Below, piece after piece: positions 39,578-45,045 of a stretch of 64,000 nucleotides of DNA. The notes below the pieces were generated by a model. The model did not search any database and was not told where the DNA came from. It saw only the letters and a list, made by a program, of their open reading frames with translations. The first letter of the stretch is position 1, and each line of letters opens with the position of its first letter. The position numbers and the translations under genes were made by a program. The DNA comes from Scytonema millei VB511283 (GTDB lineage: Bacteria > Cyanobacteriota > Cyanobacteriia > Cyanobacteriales > Chroococcidiopsidaceae): assembly GCF_000817735.3 (NCBI RefSeq), contig NZ_JTJC03000001.1, positions 1-64,000 of the forward strand, in the 5' to 3' direction.

Positions 39578-40819
39578 TCACTGATTTTGTTCTACTTTAT
39601 GTTGCTCTAAATTGGCGAGATCGCGAAAAATAATCAAAAATTCTTTATCGCCAATTGTACTAATTCGTGCTTCCTGGTATTGCTGTTTATTTTTGAAAGG
39701 AATCGGAAATTGAAAAATCTGGGTTGCTCCAGTTGTTAAAGCTAGTCGAGCATATGTGATGAGCTGTTGTGCCGTTTCAGATGGTAAGAACTCACTCACG
39801 TTCTTACCTAAGATATCTCCATTTAAAGTAAACGAATTAGCCTCTTTTGCTGGCATGTAACTCAGACACGTACCATCTTGTTTCATCCGCAACATAGAAT
39901 CTGGCAGCGCCCTTAATATGGTACTACTCGCTGTTTCACTTTCATATAAGGCAGCTTGAATCTCCTTCTGTCGCCGCCAGTTCTGAATTAATTTCTCTAC
40001 TACAAGCGCACCTAATGCACCACAGACCAAGCCGAGAATTCCAATTGGAATTAGCAAGTCTTGAGCAGAAAAATTAGATTGCGATACTTCAGATACTGCT
40101 ACGTTATATTTTGTCAGAACTACTCGTGACGTTATGCCGTACAGAGCGCTACAAAATACAATTAAAAATAAGATGAGTCCCAGCCAAGCCTGTCTGCGGA
40201 GTAAAGCAACTGTATTAGCTAAAGCAGAGGGTGATAATGTTTGAACGGGAGATGGCTGCGGTTGCTGTCGCGGAATTTGACTGCCGATTAACGAAGTCAT
40301 CCTAATTCCAGCAATTAATAGCGCTATTAAACCCGAACCTAATAGCAGAATGTAAAAGTTACTGAATGTCCCTCCTAAATATAATCCCTGATGGATTTCC
40401 AGCAAAAATCCGATTTGCTCTCTAGATAAACCGAGCCAATCCCTTGCGATTGTGTAAGCTACACCTGTTTCAGCGCTGATTGAAAGTGGTAAAAGTAAAA
40501 TCAATGCGAGCAGCCGATGAATATTACGAATATTCGGTTTTGTCAGTTCGCGATCGCTACTCCGGCGATCGAGTAAATGCGTACCTGTTACGCTCATTCC
40601 CAATATCCCCAAGCTAATCAGAATAATGTATATGGGAACGAGACGTTTACCCAGATATTCACCTTGATGAATTGTCATCAAAACATCACCAACTGAGTTA
40701 GAAACTCCAAACCAACTTTTGCCCAAGCGGTATACAACTCCAGTCAGCGCACTAGCAAGTAGAGGTAAAAAAAGAATTGGAGCAAGCTGACGATGCAGTT
40801 TACGAAACTCTACTTTCAT
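39578..40819 (-). CDS. PepSY-type membrane protein with duplicated bis-histidine module and C-terminal PAS domain
   Basis: 413 residues from the ATG at 40819 (the longer frame begins at TTG). An internal duplication is plain: LHRQLAPILFLPLLASALTG with His9 and IHQGEYLG with His51, then IHRLLALILLLPLSISAETG with His101 and IHQGLYLG with His143. The His-His spacing is 42 in both halves and the repeat period 92. About seven membrane helices precede a coiled stretch and a PAS-like domain (about 298-405: ILRALPDSMLRMKQDG, ISTIGDKEFLIIFRDL). No kinase, cyclase or receiver follows. PepSY-TM proteins and heme-binding reductases share such paired histidines, so heme b binding is possible but inferred. 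Divergent from the 1250-residue protein. Confidence 0.75.
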   Translation of the reverse strand: MKVEFRKLHRQLAPILFLPLLASALTGVVYRLGKSWFGVSNSVGDVLMTIHQGEYLGKRLVPIYIILISLGILGMSVTGTHLLDRRSSDRELTKPNIRNIHRLLALILLLPLSISAETGVAYTIARDWLGLSREQIGFLLEIHQGLYLGGTFSNFYILLLGSGLIALLIAGIRMTSLIGSQIPRQQPQPSPVQTLSPSALANTVALLRRQAWLGLILFLIVFCSALYGITSRVVLTKYNVAVSEVSQSNFSAQDLLIPIGILGLVCGALGALVVEKLIQNWRRQKEIQAALYESETASSTILRALPDSMLRMKQDGTCLSYMPAKEANSFTLNGDILGKNVSEFLPSETAQQLITYARLALTTGATQIFQFPIPFKNKQQYQEARISTIGDKEFLIIFRDLANLEQHKVEQNQ

Positions 40820-41292
40820 AACAAACAACAAAACATCTAGAGCAGCTTTTATCTTACTCTTAATAACGCTACTTAGTAAACTGTTTAGTCTTGCAAATAA
40901 TTACATTAAGCCTTGCAATCTTGAGACTTGTTCCTAGTTTTTTTTGCACTTTATTTGCACTGATTTAATATTTGGGTATGAATTCATACAGTTATTTGCG
41001 TATGAGAGTTCGCCTGCCCTGAACTTGAAAAGTTTGGTGCAAAATTACATCGAAGGCATTTCCCGTGAGGCTAAGCGTTTGGTGTGCCTATCAATCTCAA
41101 TTGCAAATTTTTGGCAAATTTATGTCTGATGATAGATGTTTTCTCCTTGCGTCACAAACGCTTCACGTTACAAGTATTAACAAATACTAGATTTCAGTAT
41201 CGAAACATACAATATATTAATTGATTTCTCTTTTATATTGCAGTTTGAGTCATCAAGGTTGCATCTTTACGCTCGGAGTCAACAATTATTTT
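40820..41292. promoter_or_regulatory. Divergent intergenic region with 14-bp perfect palindrome
   Basis: 473 bp between the PAS protein and the GlmS-like fusion gene; AT-rich, no STRR repeats, no believable gene. GTATGAATTCATAC at 40976-40989 is a perfect palindrome and could bind a dimeric regulator of either gene. Confidence 0.4.
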
Positions 41293-44200
41293 ATGGAAAT
41301 TGTCCAAGCGCTTTTGGTTCGGTCGTTGTACTGGCAGAATGTTTTTTCTTTTTTCAAAAATGTTTTTCCAGAAGTTGTGGCGGCTGCGCTCATTACGGTT
41401 ATTAGTGCAAATGATTTTAATTTTCCTCTAAATTTTTTACTATTTCTATCAAGTGCAACGCTACTCAGATTGGTTTGGAACAGTGCCATTTTCATTCATG
41501 GCTTGGGACACGCGATTGCGATCGCCATTCTCGACCGACAACCAAACGCCCTAAATATTGTCAATATTCTCGAACATAGAAGTATCGCTGTAACTTTGCG
41601 ATCGCTACTACCTTTTCAGCCAATATTTATTCCTGGATGCGATCGACAAAATCTATGGGTAGCAGCAGGCGATCGCACTCCTTGGCGAATCAGAATTAAA
41701 GCTCTTGGTGGGGTTTGTTTTAATCTTCTCGTTATTGCCATATTATGGCAATTTTCTTCTGATAGTTTCGGCAATATTTGGACGAGAGGCGATCGGGCGA
41801 TCGCTTTTATTAGCACGTTTTTCAGTCAATCTTTTCTGAGTGCTAATTTGCTAATTATTCTTAGCTCCTGGTCCGATCTTGCAGCGTTAGTGACTGGAGT
41901 TGCAGAGATTTTTTGTTGCGGTAACTTTGGCTTTTTAGGTCAGCGCAATGCCGACGACGATCCGCACCAGCTTTTGCCAGAAAGAGTGGTAAATGTCTTT
42001 CACGAAATGGGGCGAGAAACAGAAATTCGCGGCGAACAAGCTGGTGGTGGACTGATTGTAGCGACAAACCGAGATCGTCAGACTGTATTTGTCGGGAAAA
42101 AAGTTGTCAACAAGAAAAGAGACAATTTGACAAAATCGCTTGAAACAGCTTTTGCAGCAGAAAGACGCAGAGCAGCACTAGCAGGCATTAAACCCCTAGA
42201 ATCGACAGTGACGGGGGTATGGCACTATCGCTTTGGCACGAGCGGACCCCCGGCTGTCTTGGAAACTCATTGGCATGAATGGATGAATGCCAGACAAGTA
42301 TCTGTATGGCAATTTCTAGAGGGAGAGTGGGTTCACCAGTATAAAAACGTCAATCATCGGATTACCCACAACGGCGATTTTGATGCTTGGACGCTGTTCG
42401 ATCGCTCGATTGGAAATACTGAGTTAGGCTGGTGGCTGGAAAGAGTTTTGCATACCCCCAACCACGCGCGGGGAGATTCGCCCAAAATTGCGGGCATGAT
42501 GGATCTACTGGTGACTCAAGGTATGTGGGATGCTTCGGTAAGATTAGCCTATCAACTGGCGATCGCTCCTTCAATCGAGTCAGCCTTTGGCGGACAAAAA
42601 CCCACCGTTGATGCTCCGAATACAGCGCCTTCCCCGCAAGAGATCGGTAATTGGGCTGCCACGTTTGAAAATATCTTCGTGCTATATCGCAAGCTTTTAG
42701 CAGCTCCAGATTCTCCCGCCTGTAGCCAATACTTTTGTCGTCTGGAACACGATATTCTCCAAGCAACGACCAACGACAGCTCAATGAGCCAATGGTCTTG
42801 GCAGAGAAGAGTCACCTTTGTCAGAACGGCAATTCATGCTTTCTTTCACAACAACTTGTATTTCGCCACCAAAACCTTCATGTCGAGAGCCGAAGGGAGT
42901 TTTGGTTTAGTCACAGTTTCTACCCTAGAAGAGGGAAAATTGGTACTGAGCGCTCAAGGACAACCAATGTCCATTGGCTTCAATTGGCAAGACGAATACA
43001 TGGTTTATGCCTCCGAACCAGCCGCCGTTGATGCTGTGTTACTGAATTTACCAGAGTCTTACCGTTTGGACTTAGACCAGAAAATGGGAGAAATTGCACT
43101 GGTCACTGCCAAAGACATTGCAATTTACTCGATGAGTCAAAAATGCGAAGTCGCTTCATCAGACCTCAAGGATAGATGGATATCGATGGCAGACCATCCC
43201 TATCTGCCCCACGTTAAATATCCTGAAAACGACACCGTAGATCCAATTGCAGCTGACTGTCGAGAAATTCCGCCAATTCTGGCAGAAATTAGACTATCGT
43301 GGCAGAATTCAACCTCACTCGATCGCCAAAGTGCAGATTATCTGGTTCAACTTTTTTGTGAGAAGGCGCATAAATTCGAGCAAAAGCGGCAAAAAATGGT
43401 GCGTGCTGGGTTAACCGGACACATGCAGCAATTACCGTCCGTCGATCTGCTCGTGACAGGTGTAGAAAATAGTTTGTGGTTGGGAGAGAGATTTGCCCAA
43501 GATTTAAAGATTGTCTTTCCGTGGCTAAACGTGCGAGTCATCTCTTCCAATGAAGTTTTGCAACAACTTCAACACGACTTTAGCAGCTTGCAGCTGGGCA
43601 AAGACTCGATCGTTCTAGCGATTACTCAATCCGGTCAAACTTTTCCTACGGTGCAGGCGATTAATACCTTCGACCAGCTATATCGGCAAGACATCATCGG
43701 CGAGCTATTTATTTTGACCGGAGAGTTAAGCAGTTTTTTAGGCTCTCGGGCGATTCAACCGAAGCACTCAAATGCTGTGCGTCATAATATCTTCGTCAAT
43801 GGTAGCGGACGCAGAACTTCTGAACCTGCCACGATCGCAGTAGCCGCAGCTCAACATACTTTAACGGAATTATTACTTTATCTAGCAAAGCAGGTCAAAC
43901 ATCAGTTTCCTGAGTCTAGCCCTTTTGGGATGACCTTGACTCAAGAAAGTCTCGCCGCCTTAGAAAAGATGAAAGATGACTTTCTCGATATCAATGTCGT
44001 GCAAATTATGGGGACAACTCCAACTGGAAACACAATTGAAACTGCAATCCGACGAACTCTGATTGCAGGTGGTCGCACATGGGCGCTCCATATCTTAGAA
44101 ACGCCTCTAGCGTGGGGAATTCATGCTTTATATGTCGCAATTACAGTTGGATGGGCAATTCCTTTCGGTCACACAATTCCCCTAGCTAAAACAATTTTGG

Positions 44201-45045
44201 CTCTGATTGTTTGGACAGCTCACATACCTCAAGATGCACTTTTTTTGGGAATAGTCAATCCTGTTGTTAGTTTAATTGACATTGCCATATACATTTTCGG
44301 TTCGTGGCTTTGGACGTTGGGACTGCGCTATTTTCAAGGCAGGCAACTCCTCGCGCGAATTGGCAAAAGAACTTTGGTAATTGGTGACGTACCTTGGGTG
44401 AGCAAATTATTAAAATCCTATGTCAGTAAATTGTTTTCTCTCAGCTACGGAATTGCTTCTTTAGAAGTTCATGGGGCAAATCCAGAAGACGATTTATTAC
44501 ACGATTTTGGACACCGAGTCGTGAGAGGGACTCTGCTATTTTTGGGCGTACCCGATGGTAGACGGGGACAGAAGCAAAAACACCAAGAAAACGCTGCAAT
44601 TATGACGGGAAAACAAGCAGACGGCGTGAGAAATATTGATGTCGGACCGGAAGTTGTCGTTATGGGTGCTAACCCTGAAATTGCGCGCAAAGGCTTCAGT
44701 AGCGCGATCGTTTTAGAAGGTAACGATGAGTATTTTTACTTTAGGAATGCCGCTTTTTACTTCAAAGACCAAAATGCCGAAGATCAAAAAGAACTGATTG
44801 AGGATTTGAGAGAATCTCGATTTGGGGCTTTTGAGCGATTGCTAGCCAGCTACGTATTCTTCTGGGCTTTAGCGAAAAAAGTCGCTTCATTTCCTGTTCT
44901 GCAATACCAGCACTGGAAGTCTCAAAGCCGCACCAAGATCATGACGACTGCCGCACCAGTAGCAGGAATGAGCGTAGCAACGCCAAAACAACTCTACCAA
45001 CCAGACCGAGACGACAAGCCAGAAGCAGTTATCAGTGACCAGTGA
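41293..45045 (+). CDS. Membrane fusion protein: degenerate site-2-protease-like module, GlmS-like glutaminase domain, SIS domain
   Basis: 1250 residues from ATG 41293 (the TTG at 41221 adds 24). Residues 1-205 hold five to six membrane helices with HGLGH (69-73) where M50 proteases have HExxH, so the catalytic Glu is Gly. Residues 209-680 follow the class II amidotransferase plan: CGNFGFLGQRN with Cys209, RGEQAGGGLIV, HYRFGTSG (Arg313), THNGDFDAW and SRAEGSFGLVTVS...GQPMSIGF. A SIS domain follows at about 714-866 with AITQSGQT (776-783). Further membrane helices lie at about 940-1010, then a soluble tail. GlmS makes glucosamine-6-phosphate, but here the second SIS domain is not evident and the Ntn Cys is internal. 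The last residues (AVISDQ) are read from ATCAGTGACC repeat DNA. Function unknown; a membrane-tied regulator or an envelope sugar enzyme is possible. Confidence 0.75.
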   Translation: MEIVQALLVRSLYWQNVFSFFKNVFPEVVAAALITVISANDFNFPLNFLLFLSSATLLRLVWNSAIFIHGLGHAIAIAILDRQPNALNIVNILEHRSIAVTLRSLLPFQPIFIPGCDRQNLWVAAGDRTPWRIRIKALGGVCFNLLVIAILWQFSSDSFGNIWTRGDRAIAFISTFFSQSFLSANLLIILSSWSDLAALVTGVAEIFCCGNFGFLGQRNADDDPHQLLPERVVNVFHEMGRETEIRGEQAGGGLIVATNRDRQTVFVGKKVVNKKRDNLTKSLETAFAAERRRAALAGIKPLESTVTGVWHYRFGTSGPPAVLETHWHEWMNARQVSVWQFLEGEWVHQYKNVNHRITHNGDFDAWTLFDRSIGNTELGWWLERVLHTPNHARGDSPKIAGMMDLLVTQGMWDASVRLAYQLAIAPSIESAFGGQKPTVDAPNTAPSPQEIGNWAATFENIFVLYRKLLAAPDSPACSQYFCRLEHDILQATTNDSSMSQWSWQRRVTFVRTAIHAFFHNNLYFATKTFMSRAEGSFGLVTVSTLEEGKLVLSAQGQPMSIGFNWQDEYMVYASEPAAVDAVLLNLPESYRLDLDQKMGEIALVTAKDIAIYSMSQKCEVASSDLKDRWISMADHPYLPHVKYPENDTVDPIAADCREIPPILAEIRLSWQNSTSLDRQSADYLVQLFCEKAHKFEQKRQKMVRAGLTGHMQQLPSVDLLVTGVENSLWLGERFAQDLKIVFPWLNVRVISSNEVLQQLQHDFSSLQLGKDSIVLAITQSGQTFPTVQAINTFDQLYRQDIIGELFILTGELSSFLGSRAIQPKHSNAVRHNIFVNGSGRRTSEPATIAVAAAQHTLTELLLYLAKQVKHQFPESSPFGMTLTQESLAALEKMKDDFLDINVVQIMGTTPTGNTIETAIRRTLIAGGRTWALHILETPLAWGIHALYVAITVGWAIPFGHTIPLAKTILALIVWTAHIPQDALFLGIVNPVVSLIDIAIYIFGSWLWTLGLRYFQGRQLLARIGKRTLVIGDVPWVSKLLKSYVSKLFSLSYGIASLEVHGANPEDDLLHDFGHRVVRGTLLFLGVPDGRRGQKQKHQENAAIMTGKQADGVRNIDVGPEVVVMGANPEIARKGFSSAIVLEGNDEYFYFRNAAFYFKDQNAEDQKELIEDLRESRFGAFERLLASYVFFWALAKKVASFPVLQYQHWKSQSRTKIMTTAAPVAGMSVATPKQLYQPDRDDKPEAVISDQ

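Follow-up and report, generated by a model that had tools for sequence, protein, structure and literature searches.

Class II amidotransferases depend on a catalytic cysteine whose amino group must be free, and the known members expose it by loss of Met or of a short segment, the precursor segments of the MEROPS C44 group being 11 and about 36 residues long. Here we describe a gene (P0001) of the cyanobacterium Scytonema millei VB511283, found in the first 64,000 nucleotides of contig NZ_JTJC03000001.1 (the window), in which the corresponding residue, Cys209, stands behind a whole module of predicted membrane helices. Its product is probably, though not assuredly, a membrane-bound, GlmS-derived class II amidotransferase precursor that would be cut before Cys209, most likely by that cysteine itself, and gated by its SIS domain.

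Among described systems, GlmS and GFAT come closest, as they share with the window protein the order of glutaminase and SIS domains, the N-terminal nucleophile (Ntn) fold, and the positions of the Cys nucleophile, Arg73, Asn98-Gly99 and the SQSGxT loop. The differences are a 208-residue membrane module before the cysteine, a long helical insert in the glutaminase, a membrane hairpin before the second SIS half, and the replacement of His77 by Ser and of Glu488 by Ser or Ala; the window protein also scores far below the GlmS model cut-offs. With the M50 (site-2) proteases the module shares membrane helices that carry HxxxH, then a Gly-rich motif ending in Asn, and then N...D, but Gly replaces the catalytic Glu in 20 of 22 long forms, no Pfam match exceeds its cut-off, no stand-alone copy was seen, and Asn and Asp are spaced by 10 rather than the approximately 8 residues of M50. 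As in the SIS regulator GKRP, the SIS domains may be binders of sugar phosphates that lack isomerase chemistry; GKRP is not known to possess a glutaminase or membrane parts. Self-processing of class II amidotransferase precursors is described for MEROPS C44 (PurF, glutamate synthase), where, in passages of the two sources, the residues before the catalytic cysteine must go, as they would have to here (PMC5753285, PMC9140057). A passage of the latter speaks of 'a few amino acids' removed (PMC9140057), whereas in the present case a polytopic membrane module would be involved. Among the titles listed by literature searches, none describes a protein of this kind.

Gene layout and the glutaminase domain

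The gene is a single open frame of 1250 codons (1250 amino acids) that opens with an ATG at 41293 and closes with the stop at 45045; a TTG in the same frame lies 5′ of this ATG, at 41221. The features on which the argument turns are the following.

41293-45045, plus strand: whole gene P0001 (open frame, full-length homologues)
41293-41916, plus strand: N-terminal membrane module, residues 1-208, a proposed pro-segment (hydrophobic helices, model, absence from six short relatives)
41914-41919, plus strand: proposed cleavage junction Cys208/Cys209 (Met-Cys starts of short relatives; low-confidence joint)
41917-43212, plus strand: residues 209-640, a predicted class II (Ntn) glutaminase domain that contains a helical insert (model, structure match, profile match, conserved columns)

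The motifs noticed in the original prediction lie in this frame where they had been placed, namely HGLGH at 69-73, Cys209 within CCGNFGF, RGEQAGG from 246, HYRFGTSG from 311, THNGD from 358 and AITQSGQT from 776. They are more than chance resemblances, because NCBIfam GlmS models were matched by 17 of 17 family members (best E 1.9e-8, far under the curated cut-offs) and because the family profile matched a profile of 30 cyanobacterial GlmS sequences in hhalign with an E of 7.8e-8 and a probability of 94.5, Cys falling on Cys. Against the NCBIfam GlmS equivalog cut-offs of 418.05 and 381 bits, the window protein scored 17.9 and 22.8 bits. No Pfam family was found over its cut-off for the whole window protein, for 21 modules or for 17 mature parts, and a phmmer search of PDB sequences with the window protein gave no match up to E 1; GlmS (1xff, E 1.5) was retrieved by a profile of the mature part alone, and the module gave one unrelated weak match.

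The model of residues 1-640 (mean predicted local distance difference test, pLDDT, 81.4; predicted template modelling score, pTM, 0.68) has Escherichia coli GlmS as its top Foldseek match (E 2.8e-8), and VIA-align superposes it on the GlmS glutaminase domain 1xff with a Z of 23.4 and a root mean square deviation of 2.5 Å over 235 residues (209-638 covered). GFAT-1 (6zmk) also reaches Z 23.4, and residue 209 superposes on the catalytic cysteine. A class II (Ntn) glutaminase fold is therefore predicted for residues 209-640, as had been anticipated.

Conservation was counted over 28 sequences, 22 long forms that carry the module and six short forms that lack it, with the window protein included. 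Cys209, whose conservation had been named as a check on the original prediction, is invariant in all 28, as are Arg246 and Gly361. Arg313, Thr316, Asn360 and Asp395, the equivalents of GlmS Arg73, Thr76, Asn98 and Asp123, are kept in 27 of 28, where Asp395 is equated with Asp123 by the motif GDSPKIAG and the helix order in the model, hhalign having put Asp123 elsewhere, in a poorly conserved stretch. The window protein retains the positions of Arg26, Gly27, Arg73, Thr76, Asn98, Gly99 and Asp123, and His77 is replaced; Thr76, Asn98 and Asp123 we take to have roles in the glutamine site of GlmS. With this site almost complete, the domain is likely to be a glutaminase. The exception is the long form L033 (L033:1270-5004, genome G302), in which all four of the Arg, Thr, Asn and Asp have been lost. 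Ratios of nonsynonymous to synonymous substitution (dN/dS, NG86) were 0.12 for the glutaminase versus 0.42 and 0.46 for the module in two close pairs, and 0.10 versus 0.22 in two distant pairs. Judged from these sequence comparisons, the glutaminase is under purifying selection (about 0.10-0.12 in four comparisons) and the module is constrained too, but less.

Short relatives and the proposed cleavage

It had been suggested earlier that the protein is cleaved ahead of Cys209, and relatives without the module offer what amounts to a natural test of this idea, one that has seemingly been run several times. Six are distinct (L007, L010, L012, L014, L027 and L037), as L024, L025 and L028 are the same open reading frames as L010, L012 and L014 and are not counted separately. 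In each of the six, the first ATG, GTG or TTG after the in-frame stop yields Met-Cys-Gly-Asn at the position of Cys209, which lends the idea support at the sequence level. The start of the short form lies a few bases 3′ of a response-regulator gene in L012, L014 and L027, and in L005 a long form stands behind a relative of that same gene. An extra upstream match in L027 (residues 166-208), which sits inside a response-regulator gene, was judged spurious.

Among the 22 long forms residue 208 is Tyr in 16, Asn in four, Cys in one and His in one. Since it is never Met, initiation at that residue cannot expose Cys209, so that the long form could become an active class II glutaminase only through proteolysis. 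The junction lies about 8 residues behind the last membrane helix, and residues 205-207, which form the joint between this helix and the first strand, are modelled with pLDDT <50.

The short forms are scattered on an unrooted IQ-TREE phylogeny (LG+G4) built from 25 rows of mature-part sequence, three fragments of the 28 sequences being omitted. The long and short states require four changes on it, at least three of them by starred branches; label shuffles went as low as these four changes in 34-35 of 500 cases. Repeated loss of the module is the simpler reading of this pattern, because the modules are homologous to one another. A search with a module profile detected the module in 13 of 388 genomes; in 12 it shares a single frame with the remainder of the protein, and in one (G223) the contig end cuts it off. 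No stand-alone module gene was seen with this profile in short-form-only genomes among the 388. An apparent separate 198-residue module gene in G223 (L039) was rejected, as the piece runs off the contig end.

Taken together, the six Met-Cys starts, the tree and the lack of Met at residue 208 argue that the long form is most likely a precursor cleaved between residues 208 and 209. Such a precursor would insert into the membrane with residues 1-208 as a four-helix pro-module, and Cys209 itself would then most likely cut the bond before it, as in the C44 precursors PurF and glutamate synthase, giving the enzyme the free amino group on which class II glutaminases depend. The mature product would be a membrane-held glutaminase gated by the SIS domain, which, with its sugar-phosphate loop kept and its isomerase Glu gone, is more likely to bind a sugar phosphate so as to gate or receive ammonia than to make glucosamine-6-phosphate. 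Should the long form be such a precursor, its pro-segment is an entire polytopic membrane module, and the family would provide a clean system for Ntn enzyme maturation at the membrane, possibly under the control of an inactivated protease fold. It would also add a likely non-GlmS glutaminase, in loci rich in signalling genes.

Several observations weigh against this interpretation. Residue 208 of the window protein is itself Cys; the root of the tree was not inferred, so that module losses, although more economical than gains, are unproven; apart from the profile comparison, GlmS is matched only weakly by sequence; and the GlmS His77 position is Ser in 28 of 28. Support for the second SIS half comes from a model whose pLDDT is <50 over much of this part and from an alignment of probability 39.4, obtained with the membrane insert removed. 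In addition, L033, with its degraded glutamine site, retains both His, both Asn and the Asp of the module. Because these motifs persist beside a ruined site, the module may have functions beyond maturing the glutaminase.

The membrane module, the SIS part and rival explanations

The module is modelled as helices 2-37, 44-80, 130-162 and 168-201, which carry HGxGH, GGxxFN and N...D. Three motifs stand out in its conserved columns.

41497-41511, plus strand: HGLGH, residues 69-73, at the place of HExxH
41707-41724, plus strand: second of the conserved membrane motifs, GGVCFN at residues 139-144 (Asn144 kept in all 22)
41845-41877, plus strand: Asn185...Asp195, third conserved membrane motif (both in 22 of 22)

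The window protein has HGLGH in place of the HExxH of M50, and HGxGH is found in 20 of the 22 long forms. His69 is kept in 21 and His73 in all 22, and residue 70 is Gly in 20, Glu in L016 (a true HELGH) and Asp in the damaged L011, where the motif is broken. Asp195 is a possible metal ligand.

The original prediction had seen a degenerate site-2 protease in this region. Aligned with hhalign to a first cyanobacterial M50 subfamily (24 sequences, two settings), the module gave probabilities of 46.2 and 42.8, further subfamilies giving 6.9 and 6.6, 35.2 and 35.8, and 27.4 (M50B), and the best match to an M50 subfamily was 59.5 (14 sequences, E 9e-5). Block shuffles equalled the observed score in 1, 0, 1, 0 and 0 of 40 trials in five comparisons, and the second module motif fell on the AGxxAN stretch of the proteases only in the alignment to the first subfamily. 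Pfam PF02163 (M50) matched one of 21 module members, at E 1.1, and the window gene is absent from the PF02163 matches of the host genome. No M50 entry was present among the best 50 structure matches listed for the 1-640 model, either in Foldseek or in VIA-align. Because the hhalign similarity and the PF02163 match are weak, kinship with M50 is plausible but unproven; the HGLGH motif stands as read, and the module is perhaps a remote, inactivated relative of these metalloproteases.

Behind the glutaminase, the protein continues as follows.

43441-43962, plus strand: SIS domain 1, about residues 717-890, with the phosphate-type loop TQSGQT at 778-783 (hhalign to GlmS, structure match, columns)
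44104-44325, plus strand: membrane hairpin, about residues 938-1011, ahead of the second SIS half (hydropathy, helices in a low-confidence model)
44341-44952, plus strand: about residues 1017-1220, probably the second half of the SIS part with a tail (low-confidence model, structure match, hhalign, columns)

It had been claimed that all parts lie between two membrane regions; instead, the second hydrophobic stretch (about 938-1011) falls inside the SIS part, with a SIS-like half behind it, the latter at low confidence. This continuation, and the replacement of the isomerase Glu of GlmS, go beyond what the original prediction contained. For residues 209-1250 the model is of low quality (pLDDT 59.6, pTM 0.49), and its residues 435-1006 (mature numbering) superpose on the double-SIS part of GlmS 3tbf with a Z of 19.0 over 287 residues at 4.0 Å, pLDDT being <50 over 813-945; GKRP (4ly9) is among the SIS structure matches at Z 15.3. 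The loop TQSGQT aligns with SQSGET of GlmS. The second half gave no hhalign alignment to GlmS alone or globally, and when the membrane insert was removed a collinear one resulted, with a probability of 39.4. A single weak PADLOC match on the membrane hairpin (E 0.022) was not accepted as evidence of a defence function.

Cys1, Glu488, His504 and Lys603 are named for GlmS in a passage of PMC9272926. Glu488 falls on Ser1049 of the window protein, in a weakly aligned region; all 26 sequences that include this column show Ser or Ala, and two fragments lack it. His504 falls on an invariant His in hhalign. For Lys603, whose position was assigned by eye, 24 sequences show either Lys (15) or Arg (9). 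Because the isomerase Glu is replaced, a role in making glucosamine-6-phosphate is improbable, and the gene product is probably not a glucosamine synthase. Its SIS part is likely to bind a sugar phosphate.

Other explanations share parts of this evidence. The bond before Cys209 might be cut by another protease, or the fused M50-like module might cleave it in cis as an atypical metalloprotease; the short distance from the last membrane helix to the junction, the conservation of both His and the Asp in 21 or 22 of 22 long forms, the HELGH of L016 and the presence of ordinary M50 proteases in the host genome speak for this, but since 20 of 22 have Gly at the position of the catalytic Glu and the M50 link is weak, we regard it as unlikely. 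A bolder version, in which a metal-binding M50-like module times the cut in cis and a membrane signal thereby activates a sugar-phosphate-gated glutaminase, appears a long shot; this membrane zymogen, if real, would be a class II amidotransferase whose maturation is of the regulated intramembrane type. That the module is instead a plain four-helix anchor unrelated to M50, its HGxGH coincidental, has a little under an even chance. The Pfam result and hhalign probabilities of 6.6-59.5 would fit such an anchor, as would two of the five comparisons, in which one shuffle of 40 equalled the observed score, but the motif order is the same, the His pair is aligned in each subfamily alignment displayed, and no shuffle of 40 reached the score in the other three comparisons.

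A further reading, proposed earlier in the form of a dead enzyme used as a sensor, is that the long form stays uncut and inactive and senses glutamine or sugar phosphates at the membrane. The cysteine is internal in 22 long forms, signalling genes often adjoin, and L033 with its degraded site is just such a dead copy, but glutamine-site positions are kept in 27 of the 28 sequences (21 of the 22 long forms), the glutaminase is under purifying selection and the short forms expose the cysteine, so that for the family at large this seems quite unlikely. It is very improbable that the protein is an active amino-sugar synthase with altered isomerase chemistry: the whole GlmS layout is present by fold, the SQSGxT loop and the His504 equivalent are kept, and a UDP-glycosyltransferase gene is occasionally near, but the Glu488 position is changed and the Lys603 position varies as described, and an ordinary GlmS is already encoded in the genome. 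A self-processed precursor with a SIS-gated glutaminase is accordingly the explanation that we favour.

Neighbouring genes and occurrence

Gene neighbourhoods were compared at 18 loci, Pfam being run on two PepSY_TM/PAS loci, one kinase locus and one hybrid locus and the others being assigned by BLAST similarity. The divergent neighbour in the window is

39578-40831, minus strand: PepSY_TM-like membrane protein with a PAS domain (Pfam/BLAST; relatives adjoin the gene in L002, L003, L011 and L016)

and this type of neighbour is present in five of the 18 loci (the window and the four just named), as a 417-residue protein without GGDEF in the window and a 588-residue protein with GGDEF in L002. 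Four loci (L004, L006, L013 and L017) have a Ser/Thr kinase gene upstream, the one directly upstream in L013 (L013:2431-4818) being fused to a Peripla_BP_6 periplasmic binding domain, and four (L005, L008, L012 and L014) have a response-regulator/kinase hybrid directly upstream. Two of the other five (L009 and L015) are without any upstream sequence. The link to signalling suggested by these neighbourhoods, counted without a background rate for random cyanobacterial genes, is a lead. A UDP-glycosyltransferase gene is near in three of the 18 loci (L013:8584-9882, L006:9339-10628 and L010:840-2216).

Scans of genome contigs recovered the same domain order in other cyanobacteria, as had been suggested, with 17 loci that are all cyanobacterial. 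At the level of the class, 19 of 388 genomes match at E <= 0.001, among them G133 only weakly (27% identity, E 2.4e-4), a match judged to be due to chance; G048 holds only broken pieces of the gene. Within the host's family four of 19 genomes match, one in a weak, chance-like manner (G394, 30%, 83 amino acids, E 8.8e-4) and the other three from one genus. When 244 genomes from the phylum were searched with a profile, the host was the only one recovered. No matching record was found in the PLSDB plasmid collection. Given this patchy occurrence, the gene is accessory.

The host genome has one copy, in addition to ordinary GlmS and ordinary M50 proteases. In G388, of the same genus, one chromosomal copy (L158:2333-7944) is split by a stretch with a 551-residue open reading frame on the opposite strand, predicted to be probably a transposase, and a second copy is intact, with 82% identity, on a 344-kb contig (L159). 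Compared with this plasmid-like copy, the first part of the window gene, within the aligned stretch 41433-42803, has 93% DNA identity and the rest only 83%, a split that suggests recombination between copies.

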